DNA from: Kutzneria viridogrisea
Lineage (GTDB): Bacteria; Actinomycetota; Actinomycetes; Mycobacteriales; Pseudonocardiaceae
Direction of reading: 5' to 3'
Length of the DNA stretch: 64,000 nt
Assembly: GCA_014138725.1 (NCBI GenBank)
Contig: JACJID010000001.1
Location: 1,240,001 to 1,304,000, forward strand
Part shown: positions 23,724-37,756 of the stretch, piece after piece
Layout of the letters: every line of letters begins with the position of its first letter
Numbering within the stretch: the stretch's first letter is position 1
The notes under the pieces: generated by a model
Databases searched by the model: none
Told to the model about the DNA's origin: nothing
Seen by the model: only the letters and a program-made list of their open reading frames with translations
Made by a program: the position numbers and the translations under genes

Positions 23724-25426
<1,703 letters not shown>

Positions 25427-25572
25427 TCAAATGCGGCATATCAGCCGGCCAAGGCTACTGACCGGATTCTCGACCAGGACAGGCAACCTGTCACCACACC
25501 GAGCCCACGCCGGCGTCTCGGCGATGCATGCGCGGTCAACCCGTTATCGCAAGCCCTCACACAGCAGTCTCA

Positions 25573-26685
25573 CTATCGAACTTGACGCTCGACGGTCTCG
25601 ATAATTCGACCCCACAGCTTCTGAAAAAATTCTTCTTTAGATATGACCTGATCAGATCCCCCGACGTTCGAGAGTAGCGACAGGTTGAACACCTTCACAG
25701 CCGAACACTGCGCTTCTAGGTTGTAGACCGCCTCTAGCCAGGCGTTGTAACCGCTGCCGCCGTTGAAGCTGAACGTCAGTTGGTCACCACGGCCCAGCCC
25801 CCTTCCAAACATAATGTCGAGCGCGTAGACAGTCCTTCCCAAGCGTTCAACGCGCAGCGTAATCCGCTCATCCGTTCGCCGCACCGATGTCGGAAAACCC
25901 GATTTGGCGAGCTGGTCGCCAGCATCTCGAAGACTGGTCGCCAGGTACTCGTAGACGTTCTGAAGCTCCTGGAACTTACTGAAGGTCTCGGGCTGCACCT
26001 TGGGCAGCCGAACCTGCAGGGCTTCTTTCACTGCCTGCCCGGCGTCGTACGGCTCCTGTCCCGATCGGCGCTGCGCACGTTGCTCCTTCAACAAATCAGC
26101 CCTGTCGGCCGGTACGCCGAAAGCCGGACCATCCTTCCGGGGTCCGCTGCCGGGCTGGTACCGGGGCAGGTCGGGCCGGATCTTCTTTTCAGCCTGCACA
26201 TGCAACGGTTCGGCGAGCAACCGGCGCAGCAACGTCTCGACACCGGCCAGATCGATGCTGGTGACTTTGAACCACGCGACACGGTGCAGTTCGTTCGGGA
26301 TGAGCGCGTCCGACTCCCCTGGCAGCAGCACGATCACGGCCTTGCGCTGAAACTCCTGCTGATCGCGGTCGAAGATGCCTTTCAGCGCGTCCATCTCCCG
26401 AACCGCACCGGCGCCCTCGTCCGGCCGGTTCTCTCCCTTCCAACGCTCCCAGAAGGCCTTGCTGCTGATCATCAGGACGGTGCCGGCCGCCTCGACGGCA
26501 CGCGGACCGTACTCCGTCCAGTTCATCCCGGCATCTGTGTAGTGGAACAGGTCTGCGTCGACGTGGACGTAGTTCCCGAGCAGGTGCGCGAAGTCGTACA
26601 CCATCGTCTTCCACGCCTTCGTCTGTTCGGCGGACGCCCGGTAGTCGGCGTGCGCCCACGTGATAAACACCGGCAGCTGGTCCAT
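25573..26685 (-). CDS. SEFIR-domain protein
   Basis: 370-residue protein. The N-terminal SEFIR (TIR-related) domain spans about residues 1-160: LPVFITWAHADYRASAEQTK, VYDFAHLLGNYVHVDADLFH, GPRAVEAAGTVLMISSKAFW, and a later FQRKAVIVLLPG strand. The rest is a region of unknown fold containing YDAGQAVKEAL and a beta-rich end (RITLRVERLGRTVYALDIMF, QLTFSFNGG). ATG at 26685 is chosen because AGGAAG precedes it and the SEFIR strand starts at once. It lies 10 bp after the stop of the large STAND gene, so it is co-transcribed with it. SEFIR domains work as homotypic adaptors or effectors in conflict systems; here it is probably the partner of the STAND and TIR proteins. Confidence 0.78.
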   Translation of the reverse strand: MDQLPVFITWAHADYRASAEQTKAWKTMVYDFAHLLGNYVHVDADLFHYTDAGMNWTEYGPRAVEAAGTVLMISSKAFWERWKGENRPDEGAGAVREMDALKGIFDRDQQEFQRKAVIVLLPGESDALIPNELHRVAWFKVTSIDLAGVETLLRRLLAEPLHVQAEKKIRPDLPRYQPGSGPRKDGPAFGVPADRADLLKEQRAQRRSGQEPYDAGQAVKEALQVRLPKVQPETFSKFQELQNVYEYLATSLRDAGDQLAKSGFPTSVRRTDERITLRVERLGRTVYALDIMFGRGLGRGDQLTFSFNGGSGYNAWLEAVYNLEAQCSAVKVFNLSLLSNVGGSDQVISKEEFFQKLWGRIIETVERQVR

Positions 26686-26695
26686 GTCTCGCTTC

Positions 26696-29600
26696 CTACG
26701 TCCAAAGTGGATCAGTGAGCACCGTTCGCAACTGCTCGGTGTCACCGACGGCAACGGCCGCGGTCGCCTTCCGCAGCAGGGTCCACGGGTGATATCGGCC
26801 GTACAGCGCCGCGCTTCCCGACGCGGCTTCCCGAAGGGAGATCTCCGCGTCCGGCAGCTTCGCGAGAGCAGCCAGCCTGCCCGCGTTGGCCTGCCAGCAG
26901 AGCCGTTCGCCCGCGTCCAGATCTACGACTTCGTCTGCGAGCAGGTGTGTGAGTCTGCCCGCCTCCCAGCCAGGTCGTGCCGGATCCACAGGTGGCTGGC
27001 CATGCCTCGCCAGATCAGCGTCGAAACCGCCGGCCTCCACGCCGCTCAAGGAATCGAGGCTGTCGAGCAGCGGCCGAATCGCGCTGGCCCGCAACGGCCG
27101 GCCTGTAATGTTGGAGCGCAGGAGCGCCTGCCGTGCGCGGGCGAGCAAGGTGGTCGGGTGTGCGGCGCCGACGGCGGCTTCGCGCACGCGCACGGCGCGC
27201 GCCGCCGCGCGAACGTCGTTCTCGTCCGATTCATCGCTACCAGCCAGTGCCCACGCTGTGTGGAAGTCCAGTGCGAGAGCGGCGTGCACGCCTCGATCTC
27301 CGAAGGTCGCCGCGAGCTCCTGGGCCAGTTTTCGAGCTGTGGCAGGCGGAAGAGCGGCCACACCCGTGAGCCACGCCGACTGCACTCGGCGCAGGGGAAT
27401 CCACACCGACTCCGTCCCGTCGTCGTTCGCCGGGGTGAGTCGGAGGTCGGCGAGCACCGCGTCGTTGGCGGCCGTGAACTCGCCGCGGAAGACCTGCAGA
27501 TCGGTGAGCATCATTCGGCGGATCATCGTCTCGCGGTCGTCCTCGCCGAGCCGGTCCGCTGCGGTTTTCCAGCTGCCGTGCACCAGCTCGAACCCTTCAC
27601 CGGTGAAGCCCAGGTCGTAGGCGACCAATCCCAGGTTGCACTGCTGGATCAGGACGCTGCTGTGCTGAGGCGAGTGCCGGTCCAGGAGGAAGTCGAGCCC
27701 GCGACGGAGGCGTTCATGCGCGGCGCGAAGAAGCCAGGTGAGGTGCTCCGTTCTGGCGACGTTGTTCCCGATACTGTGTTGGACGCTGGGATCGGAGTGA
27801 TCGAGCGAGGTCTCCAGGGCACGAGTGAACTCGGTCCTCGCGTCGACGTAGTGTCCGTTCTCCATGAGCACGAGTGCCCGGTCGCTGACGAGCTCGGTGT
27901 ACTTGCCGTCGTTCTCTCCGTCCGGAAAGGACAGTTGCAACCGCAGCCCGGCGTCGAAGATCCGCAACGCCTCCTGGCGCCGCGGGCCCAGCGACACCAG
28001 GAAACCGAGATTGTCGAGGATCTCGACGCGCACGCGCTCACGCCATGGGACCTCGTCCGCAGTTGCGGGAGCGGGGCCTGGCGCTCGTCGCGGCATGATC
28101 TCCAGAGCGCGGCGGCCGTACGCCTCGGCAGCGGGTAGATCCACGTCGGAGATCAGGATCGAGTTCTCGTTGAGCCAGCGCGCCACCGACTGACTGCGCA
28201 GCCCGCGGACGACCTGGCCCAGCTCCGCGGCGGGCACGATCTCCGCCGGGTCGAGGTCGGTAAACGTGTCTGATACATCGCCGGACCAGTCACGTACCGC
28301 AGCGGCCGCCGCCTTATCGCCGTGCAGGGCGATTCCGAGCAGACGCGCCCGATACGCACCGCGTGCGTTTCCGCGCTCGTGGAGGTAGGCGGCGGGAAGC
28401 CACAGCGCGCGATTCGCGTACCGCTGTGCGCGATCCGCGGAGAGCAGGCGCGGATCGCGTTCGCGTTCACGCTGGACGATCCGGGACGCCGCGACCGCGG
28501 CACCGCTCAGCCCCAGTACGCGGGACCACTGGGTCGTGTCGTCGACGTCAAGTTCGCGGATCAGGTCGCCCGCCGCCGCGCCGACTCCCAGCGCGGCGTG
28601 CCCGACGTCGAACTCGGGATCGTCTCTGACCAGTTCGGCGAGCAGCGGGTGCACGAGCAGCGTTTCCTCGTCGGCACCTGTGCGAACCAGACCCTGGGCA
28701 CGCAGTTCGGTGACGGCGGCGTCACGTCGCGCCGTGTCCCTGCACAACAGGGTGACCTCGTCATCGGGATCTTCGCGGAGCCCGGCGAGGAGTTCGGCGG
28801 GCACCGCGCCTTTGCCCGCGCACGAAAGAATCTGCAACACGGCCAGCGCGTCGGCACGGCGTTCTCGCAGCAATTCGATACGCACCTGCCAGGCCGAATG
28901 CAGCGCGGAAACCCTCTCGTGATGACGTTCCAACCACCCACGCAGAGAGATCCCGTCCACGACGGCGGCAGCGGCCTGTTCCAGTGCGAACGGATGGCCG
29001 CTCACTCTCTCTGCAACGGCGCGTGCCAGATCTTCATCCTCTGCACCGGTGCGCGCCAGCAGGTAGTCGACGGACTCACCAACGGTCAGCGGATCCAGCT
29101 CCACGACGTGGGCGGCCGACCTCCAGCGCGCCGACTGAGAGGTGACGAGCACGTGCAGCCCCGGCCTCGACGGCAGCGACGTGGCGAACAGCGCGGGCTC
29201 AGGGGCGTCGTCCACCACGATCAGGGCTGGGCCGCGCTCAACCAGCGCGTCGAAGACGTGCGCGGGGTCATCCTCCGTCATGCCGAGCCGTTCGGCGAGC
29301 AGTGCGACGGACGTCCGCCACGCGGTGGCGTCGTCGGCGGTGAGCCAGCCGACGACGCGGTAGTTCTCCTCCAGCAGGTGGCACAGCCGGACGGCCAGCG
29401 CGGACTTGCCCATGCCCGATGTGGCGACGATCGCCGCGCGTACCGCACCGTGGGTGTCGGCGAAGCGCGCTACTAGGCCTTCCACCACGGATCGTCGCGT
29501 CACGTTCTCGGCGGGACTGCCCAGCTGTGGCACTACGAACACGCGCTCGACCTGGCGTGTCTCCTCGCGGGCCACGGCGGAGAGGTCGGCGGGGCGAGGC

Positions 29601-30226
29601 CACTCCCGAACGATCTCGTCGGCCAGCCGGCTGACCTGGGCGGTCTGGTCCGGCTGACCCGGCCGGACCCTAAGGTAATCCTCGAATTCTACCGGCCGCG
29701 GAATCCACATGCGGCGGAACTTCGTATGCAGAAGGCGACGCTGGTGATCAGTGGAAGCGTTACCGTTGAGAACACTGAGAACTCGCTGCGCTGACAATCT
29801 TCGATCCGCACGCAATATAGCGCCGACGAATTCATCGACCGTTTCCGTGGTACGTGCCGTACGCACCAACAAACGCAGTGCTTTGATCATGGAGCTAGGC
29901 GCGTCCGAAGGCCCTTCGCCCACCACGACCAGCACGGTCGCCACGTCCAGCGGCGCGGATTCCATCAGCTCGGCGAGCGCGTCGTCATCCACTTCCGCAG
30001 GAAGGATGCGCACGTCGAGCCGGCGAGGACCCGGTTTGCCGCCGGCGACATCGATGCGGACCGACGTGCCTGCGCCCGCCGGTTCGACACACAGCCGGGC
30101 CACCGACCCGGCGAGGCCAAGGACCGGGTGGCCCGTGACGAGGCTGGTGAGCGCCGTGCGCACAACGCCCAACGCGGGTCCTGGCAGCTGACCGTGCTTG
30201 GCTTTCGCGCCTTTCATCGAGGTCAA
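26696..30226 (-). CDS. Large STAND NTPase with C-terminal repeats and unclassified N-terminal domain
   Basis: 1,176-residue protein. Residues 1-230 form a domain I do not recognise (LPGPALGVVRTALTSLVTGH at the start, KFRRMWIPRPVEFEDYLRVR near its end). An NB-ARC-type NTPase follows with P-loop IVATSGMGKSALAVR near 268 and Walker B PALIVVDDA near 335, then a winged-helix region (LLVHPLLAELVRDDPEFDVG). The long alpha-helical C-terminus looks TPR-like (QEALRIFDAGLRLQLSFPDG, YVDARTEFTRALETSLDHSD). TTG at 30226 has GAAAGGG at proper spacing and overlaps the upstream stop (TTGA); ATG at 30217 is the alternative. The layout is that of a regulated switch in which repeats sense a trigger. Confidence 0.75.
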   Translation of the reverse strand: MTSMKGAKAKHGQLPGPALGVVRTALTSLVTGHPVLGLAGSVARLCVEPAGAGTSVRIDVAGGKPGPRRLDVRILPAEVDDDALAELMESAPLDVATVLVVVGEGPSDAPSSMIKALRLLVRTARTTETVDEFVGAILRADRRLSAQRVLSVLNGNASTDHQRRLLHTKFRRMWIPRPVEFEDYLRVRPGQPDQTAQVSRLADEIVREWPRPADLSAVAREETRQVERVFVVPQLGSPAENVTRRSVVEGLVARFADTHGAVRAAIVATSGMGKSALAVRLCHLLEENYRVVGWLTADDATAWRTSVALLAERLGMTEDDPAHVFDALVERGPALIVVDDAPEPALFATSLPSRPGLHVLVTSQSARWRSAAHVVELDPLTVGESVDYLLARTGAEDEDLARAVAERVSGHPFALEQAAAAVVDGISLRGWLERHHERVSALHSAWQVRIELLRERRADALAVLQILSCAGKGAVPAELLAGLREDPDDEVTLLCRDTARRDAAVTELRAQGLVRTGADEETLLVHPLLAELVRDDPEFDVGHAALGVGAAAGDLIRELDVDDTTQWSRVLGLSGAAVAASRIVQRERERDPRLLSADRAQRYANRALWLPAAYLHERGNARGAYRARLLGIALHGDKAAAAAVRDWSGDVSDTFTDLDPAEIVPAAELGQVVRGLRSQSVARWLNENSILISDVDLPAAEAYGRRALEIMPRRAPGPAPATADEVPWRERVRVEILDNLGFLVSLGPRRQEALRIFDAGLRLQLSFPDGENDGKYTELVSDRALVLMENGHYVDARTEFTRALETSLDHSDPSVQHSIGNNVARTEHLTWLLRAAHERLRRGLDFLLDRHSPQHSSVLIQQCNLGLVAYDLGFTGEGFELVHGSWKTAADRLGEDDRETMIRRMMLTDLQVFRGEFTAANDAVLADLRLTPANDDGTESVWIPLRRVQSAWLTGVAALPPATARKLAQELAATFGDRGVHAALALDFHTAWALAGSDESDENDVRAAARAVRVREAAVGAAHPTTLLARARQALLRSNITGRPLRASAIRPLLDSLDSLSGVEAGGFDADLARHGQPPVDPARPGWEAGRLTHLLADEVVDLDAGERLCWQANAGRLAALAKLPDAEISLREAASGSAALYGRYHPWTLLRKATAAVAVGDTEQLRTVLTDPLWT

Positions 30227-32331
30227 TCTAACCCTTTCACCGAGCCTTCCCCGGACAATCGTACCCGCACACGATCCGCATCGCCCATTCGGTGCTGGGA
30301 GAGGAAGAGATCGTACGCCACGCGCAGCATTTGGTGTGCTTTCTCCGCGTCTCCCTGGTGTGCGAGGACGTCGGCCAGATGCTCGGTGTACTCGGCTTCA
30401 GCGAAGACATTTCCGAGCTGCTTCGCCTGTCGTACGGCTGCCGTAAAGTGCTCCGCGGCCTGATCCATGCGGCCGTCCCGGCGAGCGATGTGTCCCAACG
30501 CATCCAAGGTGCTTACCTGGCCGCTCACGTTGCCGTGCGCGCTGTGGAGCGCCAAGGCTCGTTCGCAGCAATCACGGGCAAGAACGAAGTTCTCAAGCTG
30601 TGCGTGCTGCCAGCCCTGCGCGTTAAGGGCGTGCGCCTCGCCGACAGGATTGCTCTCCGCCCTGTACAACTCCATCGCGGAAATGGCGTGCTGCAACGCT
30701 TGTTCGTGCTCACCCCGCAGTGACAGGACCCGTTGCAAATCGTGGTGGGTGTGCGCCTGCCCCATCACGAACCTGGCTTCTTCTTCGAGGCTCAACGCCT
30801 GCGTGAGGCGTCGCTCGGCCTCCTCAAGATCACCCGCGCGGGTGCAGGCGCGTCCGAGTTGACGCAACGACGACGCGCGCAACCGCACGGAGCCGATCGC
30901 CATGGCCGCCTCCAGTCCGAGGCGCGACGACGCCACATTCTCCGCTAGCAGACCGAGCCGGTACTGGTAGGTGTCCAGCCCGTGGGCTATGTGCCACACC
31001 GCCTCGTACCACTTGTGGTTGGCCGCGACCCGGTGCACGACGGCAATCAACGCGTGCTCCGCACCGAACCACGCGACCGCCGCAGGTTCGTCGGTCAGGC
31101 GTAAAGGGTGGCAACCGTCCGGCAGAGCAGGCACTTCGAAAGCGTGCCGGTGCGGATACAGCAGGATGTCAGCGGTCCTGACGGTGTGTGCGTAGAACGC
31201 CACCAGCCGCTGCAGCGCCGACACCGACTCCGCCCAGGGCTGCAGTTCGGCTGCGTGCAGGCGCACCAGGTCATGCATCTGGAACCTGTGGGGAACGTGT
31301 TGGCGAACCAGATTCGCCGCCTCCAGCGAGCGGAGCGTTGCGGCCGCCTCGTGAGGAGGCACCGCCCACAGGCACGCCGCCGCACCGACGCTGATCTCGC
31401 CCAACGGCGCGACGCCGAGCAGTCCGAACGCTCGTCGCAGCCGGTCGTTCAGCGACGCGGACGACCAGGACAGCACCGCCCGCAGGCTCGCGGATTCATC
31501 GTCGGCGTCGAACGCGCTCAGTCTCGTCGTCTCGTCGTCCAGTTCGTCGGCGAGAACCGACATCGGGAATTCGGGGTGCGCCGCAACTCTGGCCGAGGCG
31601 ATCGCCAGCGCGAGCGGTAGCCCACCGCACCTATGCACGATCGCCGACACAGCTTCGGACTCCCTTTCGGCGGCACGGGCCGGCAACAACCGGCTGAGCA
31701 GCGCCGAGGCGTCAGACTCATCCATCGCCTCAAGCCGCACGATGTGGGCTCCCTGGACACGCAACGAGGACAGCCGCATTCTCGTCGTCACCAGCACCGC
31801 GCACGACGGCGTTCCAGGCAACAGCGGCGCTACCTGATCAGTGTCCCTCGCGTTGTCCAGAACGATCATCATTTGCCGGTCCGCCACCGCGCTGCGAAAG
31901 AGCGCGGCCGCAGCGTCCGGATCTGCGGGGACCGCGGCGGGCTCGACTCCGAGCGCAGTGAGGAACCCGCGCAACACCGTGGCAGGCCTGGCTGGAGCGA
32001 CTTGCGGGTCGAAACCCCTGAGGTTGGCGAAGAGTTGTCCGTCCGGGAACCGGTCGGCGTGGTGATGCGCCCAGTGCAGCACCAGCGTCGTCTTGCCGAC
32101 TCCTCCTGCGCCCTCGATGACGACCAGGGGCGGTCGTCTCTCCTCCAACGCAGCCGACAGTTCACCGAGCTCACGCTCACGGGCCACGTGCCAGCGCGGC
32201 ACCATTGGCAGCTGTCTCGGCGTTCTGAGCGGCTGCGCACCGGTCACGTGCAGACCTCCGTGCACGATGCCCGCCTGAATCGCCACGCCGACCTGGTCCG
32301 ACCGAACCAGGTTGCGTATGTCGTCGGACAT
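30223..32331 (-). CDS. NB-ARC/TPR STAND protein (AfsR-like without DNA-binding domain)
   Basis: 702 residues. A short N-terminal segment (VGVAIQAGIVHGGLHVTG) resembles the effector-associated tags on many actinobacterial STAND proteins. NB-ARC follows with P-loop IEGAGGVGKTTLVLHW (about 72-87), MMIVLDNARD (Walker B) and CGGLPLALAIASARV (GLPL motif). TPRs occupy about 480-690 (LRQLGRACTRAGDLEEAERR, HHDLQRVLSLRGEHEQALQH). There is no SARP DNA-binding domain, so it is not a pathway activator of the AfsR type. It overlaps the next gene by 4 bp. A hairpin precedes it, separating it from the HNH-TIR gene. Confidence 0.85.
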   Translation of the reverse strand: MSDDIRNLVRSDQVGVAIQAGIVHGGLHVTGAQPLRTPRQLPMVPRWHVARERELGELSAALEERRPPLVVIEGAGGVGKTTLVLHWAHHHADRFPDGQLFANLRGFDPQVAPARPATVLRGFLTALGVEPAAVPADPDAAAALFRSAVADRQMMIVLDNARDTDQVAPLLPGTPSCAVLVTTRMRLSSLRVQGAHIVRLEAMDESDASALLSRLLPARAAERESEAVSAIVHRCGGLPLALAIASARVAAHPEFPMSVLADELDDETTRLSAFDADDESASLRAVLSWSSASLNDRLRRAFGLLGVAPLGEISVGAAACLWAVPPHEAAATLRSLEAANLVRQHVPHRFQMHDLVRLHAAELQPWAESVSALQRLVAFYAHTVRTADILLYPHRHAFEVPALPDGCHPLRLTDEPAAVAWFGAEHALIAVVHRVAANHKWYEAVWHIAHGLDTYQYRLGLLAENVASSRLGLEAAMAIGSVRLRASSLRQLGRACTRAGDLEEAERRLTQALSLEEEARFVMGQAHTHHDLQRVLSLRGEHEQALQHAISAMELYRAESNPVGEAHALNAQGWQHAQLENFVLARDCCERALALHSAHGNVSGQVSTLDALGHIARRDGRMDQAAEHFTAAVRQAKQLGNVFAEAEYTEHLADVLAHQGDAEKAHQMLRVAYDLFLSQHRMGDADRVRVRLSGEGSVKGLD

Positions 32332-32375
32332 GCTTCTCCAGACAAGTGGCCGTGACCGCGCCTGTCGAACTCCAT

Positions 32376-32399
32376 CGTCGCGCCGGGTCCGGCGCGACG
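32376..32399 (-). terminator. Hairpin between the HNH-TIR gene and the STAND gene
   Basis: 11-bp perfect inverted repeat (32376-32386 with 32389-32399) inside the 94-bp gap. It could end or attenuate the HNH-TIR transcript before the NB-ARC gene. Confidence 0.55.
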
Positions 32400-32425
32400 C
32401 TTCGGCCTTTCAGGTCCTGTTCACC

Positions 32426-33574
32426 TCACATGGCTAGTCGACGTGCCTCCGTGACCACCTCATGGATCTCGCTGGCCATTTTCTGGACACTCGCCTTCAC
32501 TGTGTCCAGCGCCACAACACCAGCCAGCGAGGGGTTGTAGGCGCGGGCCTCCTCCTCGGTTATTCCATGCCAAATCGGCAACACGACCTGGTCGCCAACG
32601 ACACTGCGGTTGAGAGCTCCAGTGATCTCGTACTTTCCCCATCCCGATTCAAAGAAGGCACGAGACAGGATGACTATGCTGAAAGCGCTACGGTTGATAG
32701 CCTCGGCGAGTTTGAAAGCCAAGTTATCGCCGACTCTCAGCACGAACTTGTCAAACCATGTGCGCAGCCCCAGATCGCGCAACGCCCCCGCAAGTGACGC
32801 GGCCACGTCGCCGTCTTCATGAGCGTAGGAGATAAATACGTCCCATTCCTTCTCCACGAGATTGCCATCGAGGTGGTTCTCCGCCGCCACCGAGGGAATG
32901 AGGGATCGCAATGGATTTCCGGCTCCACCTACGCTCCCCGCCGGCAGCACGTCAAGGTTCGGGAGCGACTCGACGACCGATCGGTCGTCCAGCAGCAGGC
33001 GCGCGAGGTAAGGCAGGCGTGGATCGTGTGGCAGCTCTTCAACCAGCTTCCACGTCTCGAACAGGTCGCCAGGATCGAGCCTGGTCGGCAGAGGCCGTTG
33101 CGGGTTGCGTACGGAAACTTCGGGGTCGGTGGCGAACCAGATCCGGTTCAGCTGCACGGGCTCCGCGCCTTCGTTCGCGACCTTGAGGAAGTAGTACGCG
33201 CGGCCACCGTAATCGAAGAACGCGATGTGAGTCAGGAATGTGACAACGGCACCCGTCCCGTCAGAGCCCGTCTGGACGATCATTTTCTCGTGCCTAGCTT
33301 TGAGGTCACTCAGTAGCTCAGCGGTGAAACTGCTCCTGTTCCCGCCGATCGTCTTGAGGTCTTCTCTGCACAGCAGTATGCGGTTCTCGTGGCTTTCGAA
33401 GTAATCCAGTGGTACGACAAGGCCATCTTCTCCGCTCGCGAGCCGCGGGCGGATCGAGTATTCATGACCGGCGTCGGGATGCCCTGGCACTTGTAGCACC
33501 TTGCGTCTGCAGACCGCACATCTACCGCCAGCGCGCCGCCACAGCTCGACGCGGTCGACCTCCCTCGCCGTCAT
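32426..33574 (-). CDS. HNH-like / TIR fusion protein
   Basis: 382 residues in three parts. Residues 10-80 look like an HNH/zinc module: C19-x2-C22, H37-E38, then SHENRILLCRED with N64 and C69; the last zinc ligand of a classical HNH is changed. Residues 97-205 are beta-rich and unclassified (VTFLTHIAFFDYGGRAYYFL). Residues 241-375 are a TIR domain: EWDVFISYAHEDGDVAASLA, RTWFDKFVLRVGDNL, FSIVILSRAFFES and W312-x3-E316, which matches the catalytic Glu position of NAD-cleaving TIRs. It heads the minus-strand immune-type locus. A plausible role is an effector that degrades NAD+ and/or DNA. The combination is unusual and the activity is inferred only from motifs. Confidence 0.78.
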   Translation of the reverse strand: MTAREVDRVELWRRAGGRCAVCRRKVLQVPGHPDAGHEYSIRPRLASGEDGLVVPLDYFESHENRILLCREDLKTIGGNRSSFTAELLSDLKARHEKMIVQTGSDGTGAVVTFLTHIAFFDYGGRAYYFLKVANEGAEPVQLNRIWFATDPEVSVRNPQRPLPTRLDPGDLFETWKLVEELPHDPRLPYLARLLLDDRSVVESLPNLDVLPAGSVGGAGNPLRSLIPSVAAENHLDGNLVEKEWDVFISYAHEDGDVAASLAGALRDLGLRTWFDKFVLRVGDNLAFKLAEAINRSAFSIVILSRAFFESGWGKYEITGALNRSVVGDQVVLPIWHGITEEEARAYNPSLAGVVALDTVKASVQKMASEIHEVVTEARRLAM

Positions 33575-33628
33575 ACCGCACTACGTCGACCATCGGCAAA
33601 GTTCCGTTACACCATCCACCGAAGCGCG

Positions 33629-33865
33629 ATGACAACTTTGGACAGTGGCGCGTCCGTGACCGAGCATTCATGGTCACCCAACGGCATCTGGCTCGCAACG
33701 GTCTCGGACGACAGCATGCTGCGGATTCACCAGTTGCCCGAGGCGCGGTGCCTCGCCGAGCTCCGACTGGACAGCGACCTGGTTGACTGTGCTTGGCTGG
33801 ACAACGACCGCTTGGTCGTCGTCGGCGGGCAGGCCGTCTACTGGTTTCGATGGCTACCGTCTTGA
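33629..33865 (+). pseudogene. WD40 repeat remnant
   Basis: 78-residue frame with two recognisable WD40-like blades (HSWSPNGIWLATVSDDSMLR and CAWLDNDRLVVVGGQAVYWF), the typical last blades of an NB-ARC-WD40 or kinase-WD40 protein. Nothing upstream encodes the rest of a propeller. It is divergent from the HNH-TIR gene with only 54 bp between. It is probably the tail of a deleted gene, or a very small stand-alone protein. Confidence 0.6.
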
Positions 33866-34657
33866 CCGCTCGTCTGCGACAAAATTCGCGGGGCCCGCGT
33901 CGCAGCCAACCAGTTTGAGGCCCGCCGTCGATAGGCGGTGGGAGCTGGGGAGCACGGCGGGGAGCAGATGGGGAGCAAACATGTGCGTTGAACGGTCCCC
34001 AACTGCGCACAACGACTCTGAACGGATCCGCGCCGACCTGCGGAAGTGCGTTTCCGCAGGTCGGCGCACTACGTCGTCCTTGGTTCACACCGAAGAGGTC
34101 ACAGGTTCGGTGGCGTTGCTGTTTGCGCTGGTCACACTGCTGGTGGCGATCATGGCTGGATTCGCGCGGTGCCGGGGGAGTGGGCGGTGGTGGTGGCGGG
34201 CTTGCTTCGTCGACGGCTCGTTAGGGGCTGCAGGGTGTTCCGATGTCGCGCAGTCCTGGGTTCGCCGGAGGTGGGGGTGGGGCGTCCTGTGTGGATCAGG
34301 TCGCTGGTGATGGTTGTCTTCAGCAGGCGTGGTGATGCGGCAGGAGACCGGTGCGGGTGTCTGTGTCCCGGTAATGGCGTGAACGTCGCCGTGTGGTCCT
34401 GTGGGTCCTGGTTTCGACGTCAACGGTTGTGTGGTGACCGGAACCGGTGCGTGGTCCTGGCCGGTTGAGGTCGGTCGATGGTGTTTGGCGTCGGTTGGGG
34501 AGTTCACCCGGTCGGGATGGGGGTCCGCGCGGCAATAACGGTGTTGTGGATCTTGGCTGGAGGAGGTCGCTCCTGTTTCGCTCCAGCCTCGGGCTTGTTG
34601 ATCTCCGTTGCGACCACAGTGGACGGTCGCCGCAAGATCATCGCCGGGTACGACAAA
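33866..34657. other. Non-coding stretch between the WD40 remnant and the tRNA terminator
   Basis: About 790 bp without a gene I can support. It holds three GGGGAGCA-type repeats (33946-33979), a perfect hairpin (34030-34067), and a minus-strand open frame (34085-34507) rich in Pro, His and Thr that shows no domain and looks spurious. Confidence 0.5.
34030..34067. repeat. Perfect 16-bp inverted repeat
   Basis: Arms 34030-34045 and 34052-34067 (GCGCCGACCTGCGGAA and its complement) with a 6-nt loop. It is not next to a gene end, and could be a stand-alone palindromic repeat or a relic of a mobile element end. Confidence 0.7.
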
Positions 34658-34697
34658 GGCCCGCCGACCTGGGCTGATGCCCAGAGCCGACGGGCCC
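34658..34697 (-). terminator. Terminator of the tRNA-Pro gene
   Basis: GC-rich imperfect stem-loop on the minus strand just beyond the 3' end of the tRNA, followed by CTTTGTC, a short U-rich tail. Confidence 0.65.
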
Positions 34698-34708
34698 CGT
34701 CTCGACCG

Positions 34709-34782
<74 letters not shown>

Positions 34783-35063: not shown

Positions 35064-37292
35064 ATGGCCAGCCCACCCCAGAGCGAGCCGACCAGGATCG
35101 GTCGTCGCGGGTTCCTGACGTTCCTGGTGGCGGCACCGGTGTTGACGGTGGCCGCGGACCTGGCGACCGAGGCGGTGGCTCCGGGTACGGCGAACGCGGT
35201 GGTGCCGACGTTGCCGGCCCCGGCCGACCTGACCGATCTGGGCGACATCCTGATCCTGGCGGGCACGCCGACGGCGAACATGCTGGTGCTCCAGGTGGAG
35301 CGGGACAACAGGGTGCACCTCCAACTGCCGAGGGCGGAGGTGGGGCAGGGGCTGACCACGGCCACGGCGATGCTGGTGGCCGAGGAACTGGACGTGCCGC
35401 TGGACCAGGTGGTGGTGACCCTGAGCGACGCGCGCACGGAGTTGCTGTTCAACCAGCTCACGGGCGGCTCCAACTCGATCCGGTCCCTGTACACGCCGGT
35501 GCGCACGGCGGCGGCGACGGCGCGGGCACGCGTGGTGGCGGCGGCCAGCGAGCGGTTCGGGGTGCCGGCGGCGAAGCTGGTGACCAGGGGCGGTGCGGTG
35601 CACACGGCGGACGGGCGCAGCGCGGGCTACGGGGAGCTGACGGCGGCCGCGGCGCGGTCGACGCTGGCGATCGGCGAGGTGCGGTTGAAGCCGGAGGCCC
35701 AGCACAACGTGGTGGGCACCCCGACGTCCAGGGTGGACGCCCGCGCGATGGTGACGGGCCAGCAGCGCTACACCCTGGATCTGGACGTGCCGGGTGCGAT
35801 GCCGACGATGGTCCGCAGGCCGCCGACGATCAACGGCACGGTGCGGGCGATCACCAACGAGGCGGCGGTGCGCGCGATGCCGGGGGTGCTGGCGCTGGCG
35901 GTGGTGCCGACCGGCGTGGCGGTCACGGCGGAGACGTTCGGGCAGGCGCTGGACGCGAAGAACGCGTTGCAGGTGACCTGGAACGGCGGCACGGTCGACA
36001 ACCTGTCCGATGTGGACATCCGCAAACAGTTGCACGCCGCGGCGCTGCCCTTCGTGGTGCCGCCGCTGCTGACCCAGTACGTGGACGCGGAGTTCGACTT
36101 CGCCTTCGTCAGCCACGCGCCGATGGAGACCAACTCGGCGATCGCCGACGTGCGCGGGGACAGTGCGGAGATCTGGGCCGGGTTGAAGTCGCCGATCGTG
36201 GCCAAGCAGACCATCGCGCAGGCGATCGGCCTGCCGGTGGACAAGGTCACGGTGCACGTGGTGCAGGGCGGCGGGTCCTTCGGGCGCAGGCTGTTCTTCG
36301 ACGCGGCACTGGAGGCGGCGCAGATCTCCAAGGCCATGAAGCGGCCGGTGAAGCTGATGTGGAGCCGCATCGACGACATGCGGCACGGCAGGGCGCGCGC
36401 GGCCAGCCACCACAAGATCAGGGCGACCTTCGCGCTGGGCCAGGTGCTCACCTTCGAACACCGGGTGGCCAGCGTGGAGACCGACTTCCGGCACGGGCTC
36501 GGTGAGATCCTCACCGCGACGGCGGCGCACCTGCCGGTGGCGGGCAACCTGAGCTTCGCGCAGACCGTTTTCCTGACCACGGTCAAGTCCCCGTACAACT
36601 TCGGGGTCACCACGCAGCTGCTCAACGAGGTACCGCTGCAGATGCACACCGGCAGCTTCCGCTCGGTGTACTCGGCGAACACCCGGGGCGCCGAGGAGAT
36701 GGTCGTGGACCTGCTCGCGGCGAAGCTGGGCAAGGACCCGGTGGCCTTCCGCCGCGAGTTCCTCAAGACCGACCGGCAGCGCGCGGTGCTGGACAAGGTC
36801 GCCTCGGCGGGCAACTGGGGCAGGGCCATGCCCAAGGGCTTCGCGCAGGGCGTGGCCGTGCACGACGAGTACAAGTCCTGCACGGCCTGCCTGGTGGAGA
36901 TCGACGCGCGCGATCCCAAGGCGCCCAGGGTGGTCAAGGCGGTGATCGCCGCGGACGTGGGGCGGCCGATCAACCCGCGCGGGCTCCAGGCCCAGCTGCT
37001 GGGCGGCCTGACCGACGCGATCTCCACGACCCTGCGCGCGGGCCTGCACATCGACAAGGGCCTGCCGCTGGAGGGCAGCTACTCGCAGTTCCACTACGCC
37101 AGGCAGAAGGACACCCCGACCGACGTGCAGATCTTCGTGATGCCCGCGAACGGGGAGCCCGGCGGCGCCGGTGAGCTCGGGCTGCCCGCGGCGGTCGGCG
37201 CGATCGCCAACGCCTACACCTGCGCGACCGGCACCAGGCCGACCAGCTTCCCGATCAACTTCCCGGTCGACTTCGACCCGTTCCCCCGCTGA
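35064..37292 (+). CDS. Molybdenum hydroxylase large subunit (isoquinoline 1-oxidoreductase beta type)
   Basis: 742-residue molybdopterin-binding subunit of the xanthine-oxidase family, IorB/aldehyde-dehydrogenase type, which hydroxylates N-heterocycles or oxidises aldehydes with water. A twin-arginine signal (RIGRRGFLTFLVAAPVLTVA, about 11-30) indicates export with the folded cofactor. Cofactor-region motifs are LPRAEVGQGLTTATAMLVAE, QLTGGSNSIRSLYT, VVQGGGSFGRRLFFDAALEA and GGAGELGLPAAVGAIANAY; Glu in GAGELG is the catalytic base. It is followed after 8 bp by its iron-sulfur subunit. No XdhC-type maturase is present nearby. Confidence 0.9.
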   Translation: MASPPQSEPTRIGRRGFLTFLVAAPVLTVAADLATEAVAPGTANAVVPTLPAPADLTDLGDILILAGTPTANMLVLQVERDNRVHLQLPRAEVGQGLTTATAMLVAEELDVPLDQVVVTLSDARTELLFNQLTGGSNSIRSLYTPVRTAAATARARVVAAASERFGVPAAKLVTRGGAVHTADGRSAGYGELTAAAARSTLAIGEVRLKPEAQHNVVGTPTSRVDARAMVTGQQRYTLDLDVPGAMPTMVRRPPTINGTVRAITNEAAVRAMPGVLALAVVPTGVAVTAETFGQALDAKNALQVTWNGGTVDNLSDVDIRKQLHAAALPFVVPPLLTQYVDAEFDFAFVSHAPMETNSAIADVRGDSAEIWAGLKSPIVAKQTIAQAIGLPVDKVTVHVVQGGGSFGRRLFFDAALEAAQISKAMKRPVKLMWSRIDDMRHGRARAASHHKIRATFALGQVLTFEHRVASVETDFRHGLGEILTATAAHLPVAGNLSFAQTVFLTTVKSPYNFGVTTQLLNEVPLQMHTGSFRSVYSANTRGAEEMVVDLLAAKLGKDPVAFRREFLKTDRQRAVLDKVASAGNWGRAMPKGFAQGVAVHDEYKSCTACLVEIDARDPKAPRVVKAVIAADVGRPINPRGLQAQLLGGLTDAISTTLRAGLHIDKGLPLEGSYSQFHYARQKDTPTDVQIFVMPANGEPGGAGELGLPAAVGAIANAYTCATGTRPTSFPINFPVDFDPFPR

Positions 37293-37300
37293 GGAGTGCC

Positions 37301-37756
37301 GTGCCGAACTACACCTTCTCCGTCAACGGCAAGACGGTGACCGTGGACGCGCCCGCCGATCTGCCGTTGCTGTGGGCGCTGCGGGACAAGCTGGGCGTCA
37401 AGGGCCCCAAGTACGGCTGTGGCATCGACGTCTGCAAGGCGTGCACCAGCCACCTGGACGGGGAGAAGATCAACCCCTGCGTGGTGCCGGTATCCGAGGC
37501 CGAGGGCCGCGAGGTCACGACGATCGAGGGCCTTGCCCAGGGCGACAAGCTGCACCCGGTGCAGGAGGCGTGGCTGGAGCAGGACGTGGCCCAGTGCGGC
37601 TACTGCCAGCCGGGCCAGATCATGGCGGCGGTGGCCCTGCTGAAGAAGACGAGGAACCCGACCGACGCCGAGATCGACGAGATCGAGAACGTGTGCCGGT
37701 GCGGGACCTACTTCCGGATCAGGGAGGCGATTCGCAGCGCGGCCGCGAAGATGTAG
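37301..37756 (+). CDS. (2Fe-2S) small subunit of the molybdenum hydroxylase (IorA type)
   Basis: 151 residues with a plant-type [2Fe-2S] cluster (C40, C45, C48 and C60, in KYGCGIDVCKACTSHLDG) and a second all-helical cluster site (QCGYCQPGQIM and CRCGTYFRI). It passes electrons from the molybdenum site, probably to an external cytochrome acceptor as in other IorA/IorB enzymes that lack a flavin subunit. It has no signal peptide and is presumably exported with the Tat-tagged large subunit. Confidence 0.93.
   Translation: MPNYTFSVNGKTVTVDAPADLPLLWALRDKLGVKGPKYGCGIDVCKACTSHLDGEKINPCVVPVSEAEGREVTTIEGLAQGDKLHPVQEAWLEQDVAQCGYCQPGQIMAAVALLKKTRNPTDAEIDEIENVCRCGTYFRIREAIRSAAAKM

Follow-up and report, generated by a model that had tools for sequence, protein, structure and literature searches.

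Do four adjacent minus-strand genes in Kutzneria viridogrisea form an immune-type system, and do all four of them belong to it? The first-pass annotation of the window, i.e., the whole stretch of 64,000 nucleotides that was analyzed, proposed an undescribed four-gene locus of this kind. Reading of the ORFs showed that P0004, P0003, P0002, and P0001 are all uninterrupted and lie on the minus strand at the coordinates below, and the TIR, NB-ARC and TPR, STAND, and SEFIR domains assigned to them were found. The features referred to in the text are as follows.

23724..25420, minus strand: left edge of the shared block, with IS3-type transposase remnants
25101..34100, no strand assigned: block common to the window and Kutzneria buriramensis, 98.3% identical
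25573..26685, minus strand: P0001, SEFIR protein, 370 amino acid residues from the ATG at 26685; the ORF opens at a TTG at 26754 (393 residues)
26696..30217, minus strand: P0002, STAND NTPase with an FxsT-like NB-ARC domain (residues ~244–540), a weak TPR-like C-terminal region, and an orphan domain at residues 1–240
30223..32331, minus strand: P0003, AfsR-like NB-ARC-TPR protein
32332..32425, minus strand: intergenic region with a GC-rich hairpin (10-bp stem) between the apparent accessory gene and the three-gene core
32426..33574, minus strand: P0004, HNH-like-TIR protein with a degenerate HNH domain (residues ~1–105), a middle region, and an AbTIR-class TIR domain (residues ~240–375)
34708..34782, minus strand: tRNA-Pro(GGG), an apparent integration hotspot

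The last three genes had been described as coupled by a 4-bp overlap and a 10-bp gap. The 10-bp gap between P0002 and P0001 stands when counted from the conserved ATG at 26685, which is most likely the start codon of P0001. The overlap does not, as it depends on a TTG at 30226 that is absent from the Umezawaea orthologue of P0002; the ATG at 30217, located 5 bp past the stop codon of P0003, is conserved in all three orthologues. About 95 bp lie between P0004 and P0003, and here a 99-nt stretch folds with a z score of −1.9, a value matched by 6 of 200 shuffled sequences.

A pattern scan of 84,980 species genomes for P0002, which picks up close relatives only, yielded two loci, in K. buriramensis (L002) and Umezawaea endophytica (L003), and only three genomes, that of the window included, were found to contain the three-gene core, a small number that speaks against the immune reading. 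Among 200 genomes of the family, with three candidates scored per genome, full-length P0002 was present only in the genome of the window and in the same two genomes (G109 and G089); it was found in none of five other sampled genomes of the genus. The co-occurrence of the families in order elsewhere, on which the first-pass annotation had made its proposal depend, was thus observed: K. buriramensis has all four, and U. endophytica has P0003, P0002, and P0001. L002 carries the four genes in the same order and is 98.3% identical to window positions 25101–34100 over 9.0 kb; outside this block, its 16.3 kb matched only a 175-bp IS piece (24927–25101, 92%) and a 124-bp stretch (37498–37621, 75%). 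In L003, the three core genes are intact and in the same order, with 92.2% identity to window positions 25523–32464, and the tRNA-Pro region is matched at 80%. The rpoB genes of K. buriramensis and Umezawaea are 89.4% and 87.2% identical to that of the window's genome, respectively. Since these values are exceeded by the operon identities of 98.3% and 92.2%, the block has moved horizontally. Its GC content is 0.66, compared with 0.70–0.72 in the flanks, and operon DNA gave no match in plasmids. The dN/dS ratios calculated by the Nei-Gojobori method were 0.19–0.27 in six of seven gene comparisons, and that of P0001 against K. buriramensis was 0.54, a value based on 7 synonymous and 12 nonsynonymous changes. 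On this sequence evidence, the gene set is more than a chance neighborhood.

The last dozen or so codons of the HNH-TIR gene, with its stop codon, persist upstream of the core in Umezawaea, and the remainder is gone. Because these codons remain, Umezawaea probably once had the HNH-TIR gene; the dN/dS ratios of its core do not reveal whether the selection acted before or after the loss. One explanation of the locus is that all four genes form an obligate four-part cascade, in which the TIR and SEFIR products act together. The complete set in K. buriramensis, the purifying selection on P0004 (dN/dS of 0.27), and the probable earlier presence of the fourth gene in Umezawaea, as deduced from its remains, are consistent with such a cascade. 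However, Umezawaea has three intact genes with dN/dS ratios near 0.2 without HNH-TIR, and the gap of about 95 bp with its stable hairpin sets HNH-TIR apart, so that we consider an obligate cascade unlikely. Because Umezawaea keeps the core and only the end of this gene, and because the hairpin gap intervenes, HNH-TIR looks accessory to the three-gene core rather than part of one four-gene unit. Of the immune-type locus originally proposed, a mobile, tRNA-linked combination of STAND and TIR/SEFIR proteins that recurs elsewhere is retained, but not the four genes as a single unit.

The locus had also been placed, as islands are, between an IS scar and a tRNA gene. This description was accurate, because IS3-type remnants lie at the left of the horizontally moved block and tRNA-Pro(GGG) lies alongside it. 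L003, whose 17 kb contain no intact tRNA gene, has 47 nt copied from the 3′ half of tRNA-Pro(GGG) some 640 bp upstream of P0003. Genomes of the same genus contain further copies of the tRNA-Pro 3′ half (cf. window positions 34697–34752) about 25–400 kb away from the intact gene. In two of these genomes, G019 and G126, one such copy has IS fragments resembling those of the window no more than 0.4 kb away. These sequences suggest that, within the genus, tRNA-Pro(GGG) is a hotspot of integration. Pfam detected no site-specific integrase in 16 flanking ORFs, the sole integrase-type domain being that of the IS3-type transposase. Molybdopterin-dehydrogenase genes adjoin the block in both Kutzneria genomes (L002, 2525–5667; window, 35064–37292) with no detected DNA similarity, possibly by coincidence. 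On the plus strand at 33598–33865, the window also encodes a WD40-like C-terminal tail (HSWSPNGIWLATVSDDSMLRIHQ; family assigned by eye), probably what is left of a further STAND-WD40 gene that converges with the operon.

In P0004, the TIR domain matched Pfam TIR_2 (2.2e-19) and, at 1.4e-28, the chain of the NADase AbTIR; matches to further bacterial TIR structures were close to 1e-28. Its glutamate, which we take to be catalytic, is aligned in the alignment to 4lzp. The HNH region (residues 4–104) matched the PADLOC endonuclease-effector and SAVED_HNH models (2.4e-8 and 3.3e-8, respectively), and none of the Pfam HNH models responded at E 0.1. At what are presumably the catalytic positions of the HNH motif, three of three family relatives have H-N-H, whereas P0004 and its K. 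buriramensis orthologue have S-N-L; in P0004, the following Asp is lost and the zinc-type cysteines are kept. Because both catalytic histidines are missing, the domain is probably a dead nuclease. The HNH-TIR fusion of the first-pass annotation is present as a pair of domains but probably without a working nuclease, and P0004 would represent a pseudo-nuclease maintained under selection inside a TIR protein. No relatives of P0004 were found in viral contigs.

P0001 consists of a SEFIR domain (residues ~24–220) and a C-terminal domain (residues ~230–393, numbered in the 393-residue frame). The SEFIR domain matched the PADLOC bSEFIR model over residues 24–215 (3.8e-7) and Pfam SEFIR at 0.0086, under the cut-off. 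The match covered positions 35–203 of the 412 in the bSEFIR model with 28 bits and did not extend to full length. The C-terminus belongs to a family other than that of the bSEFIR model; it is common to TIR-like proteins, which were 271–365 residues long among the matches listed, and it also matched the C-terminal end of a single ThsB1 model from PADLOC (E 1.8e-4). To the SEFIR domain of P0001 we aligned domains from 20 loci, two of which are P0001 orthologues; L028 and L069 encode an identical protein. Locus L096, the 21st, had no match and was left out. A candidate catalytic Glu was present in all 21 rows, 20 of them distinct. In P0001 it is Glu120 of the 393-residue frame, or Glu97 counted from the ATG, within GAGAVRE. 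It corresponds in position to the catalytic Glu of TIR NADases and may be functionally equivalent to it; the P0001 SEFIR and P0004 TIR domains both retain the Glu that an NADase should have. In a search of 396 genomes of the phylum at E 1e-6, in which about four candidates per genome were scored and sensitivity was low, P0001 matched only in its own genome; no relatives were found in phages.

Of the two STAND proteins, P0002, with 1,176 residues, matched NCBIfam FxSxx_TPR at 8.4e-44 with 150 bits, below the cut-off of 300. P0003 scored 301 bits on AfsR, under the curated cut-off of 1430, and Pfam reported no SARP DNA-binding domain in it. AfsR-type proteins often regulate secondary metabolism, which counts against an immune reading. 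P0003 has a standard P-loop and a motif that we take to be MHD-like; the P-loop of P0002 opens with Ala in all three orthologues, where the 20 further homologues in the alignment have Gly, and both P-loops fit [AG]xxxxGK[ST]. The first-pass annotation had called the N-terminal domain of P0002 unclassified, and we likewise detected no relative beyond the orthologues in the genomes searched. Among 200 genomes of the family, residues 1–240 were related only to the three orthologues, that of the window included. Among 377 genomes of the order, nine weak and incoherent matches were obtained at 0.0025–0.0076; of six re-tested, one scored again, over 43 residues of a 129-residue frame, and two of the weak matches are RNase E/G-like in our reading. 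A relationship of this domain to the P0001 profile A3 was discarded (0.2% probability), as was a BASS amyloid motif shared by the P0003 N-terminus with P0001, P0002, or P0004, for which 69, 297, and 227 of 300 shuffled sequences, respectively, scored equally high.

That the parts work together is indicated mainly by the fusion of related SEFIR, TIR, and HNH domains to STAND or other P-loop NTPases elsewhere. A P-loop pattern occurred in the same ORF in 12 of 16 SEFIR-bearing proteins related to P0001, a count that is not a frequency because long ORFs or the proximity of a STAND match had mostly guided the choice of these 16; L047, among the 12, is not a STAND protein but a UvrD-type helicase. 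SEFIR was joined to a P0002-like STAND region in L058–L060 and to a P0003-like NB-ARC-TPR region in L064 and L068. Pfam analysis of 10 SEFIR proteins identified SEFIR with NB-ARC and TPR in L058, L064, and L068, with NACHT in L066, with AAA_22 in L061, and with EAD2 in L095; SEFIR was alone in L062, and L048 was unmatched. A P0004-like TIR domain was joined to a P0002-like STAND region in L111. Among HNH relatives, that in L097 was fused to NB-ARC-TPR and that in L098 to a protein with a P-loop recognized by eye, and the one in L074 was a 189-residue ORF. With these SEFIR, TIR, and HNH fusions, every effector type of the present locus occurs elsewhere attached to a STAND-type protein, as though TIR-superfamily and HNH-like modules were swapped around one kind of STAND scaffold.

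The C-terminal domain of P0001 was matched in 21 rows, and the surroundings of 8 of these loci were analyzed. An NB-ARC-TPR ORF was found 1.5–2.1 kb away in seven of the eight; of 20 control stretches of equal length, half of them from the same genomes, 2 contained such an ORF at any position. The seven loci, with their similar spacing, may be one conserved chromosomal locus and hence are not independent. The eighth (L050) was without an NB-ARC-TPR neighbor, and an in-frame stop codon interrupts its gene.

It is also conceivable that unrelated one-gene TIR and SEFIR-type systems came to lie beside stray STAND genes in a tRNA-linked accumulation of discarded defense genes. The island does hold a WD40-like tail without the rest of its gene and IS scraps, and the hairpin sets P0004 apart. 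Nevertheless, P0003, P0002, and P0001 are tightly packed and occur together in three genomes, and SEFIR-STAND fusions exist elsewhere; such an accidental assembly appears quite improbable.

The gene set had been put forward as a candidate undescribed system. The PADLOC protein models, applied alone without the system rules, gave matches at the level of single domains only. No description of the set was found among the matches listed in one open-licence library, outside of which lie most subscription papers, including the primary paper on antiphage SEFIR, reportedly that of Millman and colleagues in 2022. The closest comparisons are as follows. SEFIR is listed under NAD+ depletion with an abortive phenotype in one source (PMC12322248) and under NAD+ depletion in another (PMC12926258). 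Like bSEFIR, for which the NAD+ depletion is listed there (PMC12322248), P0001 has a SEFIR domain with conserved core residues; unlike bSEFIR, it has another C-terminal domain and adjoins two separate STAND genes. The single-protein TIR/SEFIR-STAND (NLR-like) systems, including the TIR-AP-ATPases of FxSxx-type systems (PMC7159879), share the NTPase class and effector superfamily with the present locus. In the latter, by contrast, two STAND genes are present, and the effector, which has a C-terminal domain of its own, is encoded apart from them. The best reading is that the locus belongs to the TIR/SEFIR-STAND kind and differs from these relatives in its separate effector protein and two STAND proteins.

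A similarity to Thoeris is that the C-terminal domain of P0001 and the TIR domain of P0004 match ThsB1 models (other models of that family in the case of P0004, the best at 4.6e-24); a difference is that no ThsA-like SLOG, Sir2, or macro domain was found in flanking ORFs (16 by Pfam and 10 by PADLOC). The best PADLOC match of P0004 was candidate PDC-S66 (2.2e-42), to which it is similar in the TIR part only (model positions 142–280 of 282); the N-terminal half of the model was unmatched, and P0004 has its HNH-like part there. The two-gene nSTAND2 operons (PMC8195603) resemble the locus as mobile operons with two STAND proteins, but they belong to another STAND family, and in them an inactive STAND protein is joined to a GT4 or HEPN effector, whereas both P-loops of the present locus fit the consensus.

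In FxSxx-type systems, a TIR-AP-ATPase is encoded by a gene of its own next to the peptide genes (Kaur et al. 2020, PMC7159879). Membership of the FxSxx-COOH system was rejected for P0002 on its FxsT score of 150 bits against the cut-off of 300, and no radical-SAM domain occurred in the 16 flanking ORFs scanned. Three short ORFs ending in FxSxx in the 64 kb were rejected as peptide candidates and look like chance. One of the three, a 41-codon antisense ORF in the P0004–P0003 gap (window 32312–32437, plus strand), ends in F-T-S-H-G, probably by chance. A further alternative, likewise unlikely, is that the STAND pair regulates secondary metabolism or peptide production (AfsR-like or FxSxx-type) rather than immunity: the 301 bits of P0003 on AfsR, the 150 bits of P0002 on the FxSxx TPR family, and the TIR-AP-ATPase genes near peptide genes (PMC7159879) point that way, but both scores fall under their cut-offs, SARP, radical-SAM, and credible peptide candidates are missing from P0003, the 16 flanking ORFs, and the short ORFs, respectively, and the locus is a horizontally transferred block next to a tRNA gene.

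We therefore propose, with moderate confidence, that the three-gene core may be a STAND-gated, NAD-consuming immune module, most likely directed against phages, to which HNH-TIR would be optional. One or both of the TPR-STAND proteins would sense an invasion cue and oligomerize upon nucleotide exchange. The resulting assembly would recruit the SEFIR protein, probably via the C-terminal domain of P0001 or the orphan N-terminal domain of P0002, and the clustered SEFIR domains would cleave NAD+, so that the infected cell stops growing. HNH-TIR could serve as an optional second effector, NAD-cleaving or signal-making, with its HNH part as a structural module. If the proposal is correct, the locus would be an NLR-like immune module with sensor and effector as separate proteins and two cooperating STAND switches, in which the sensor–helper question of eukaryotic NLRs could be tested in a small bacterial operon. 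A more elaborate version, which we regard as possible though somewhat unlikely, is a paired-NLR system in which the two STAND proteins divide the roles of sensor and helper, the orphan N-terminal domain of the helper being a new adaptor that docks the detached SEFIR effector via its C-terminal domain, and the dead-HNH-TIR protein being an interchangeable amplifier. Such a system would parallel the sensor–helper NLR pairs of plants.

Several of the P0001-related proteins have further features. In two of them (L063, 4458–8051; L065, 4920–8285), a SEFIR-CHAT(caspase-like)-AAA arrangement places two candidate effector domains on each NTPase. The SEFIR part of P0001 also occurs on five Rhodococcus plasmids, three of which were inspected. 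On a conjugative one, the domain, 40% identical to that of P0001, lies in the protein annotated as a UvrD-type helicase (L047, 5953–8541). On another (L048, 5932–8856), a SEFIR-like region lies in a 974-residue ORF that has a P-loop and matched nothing in Pfam, and this plasmid carries a Shedu-domain gene as well.
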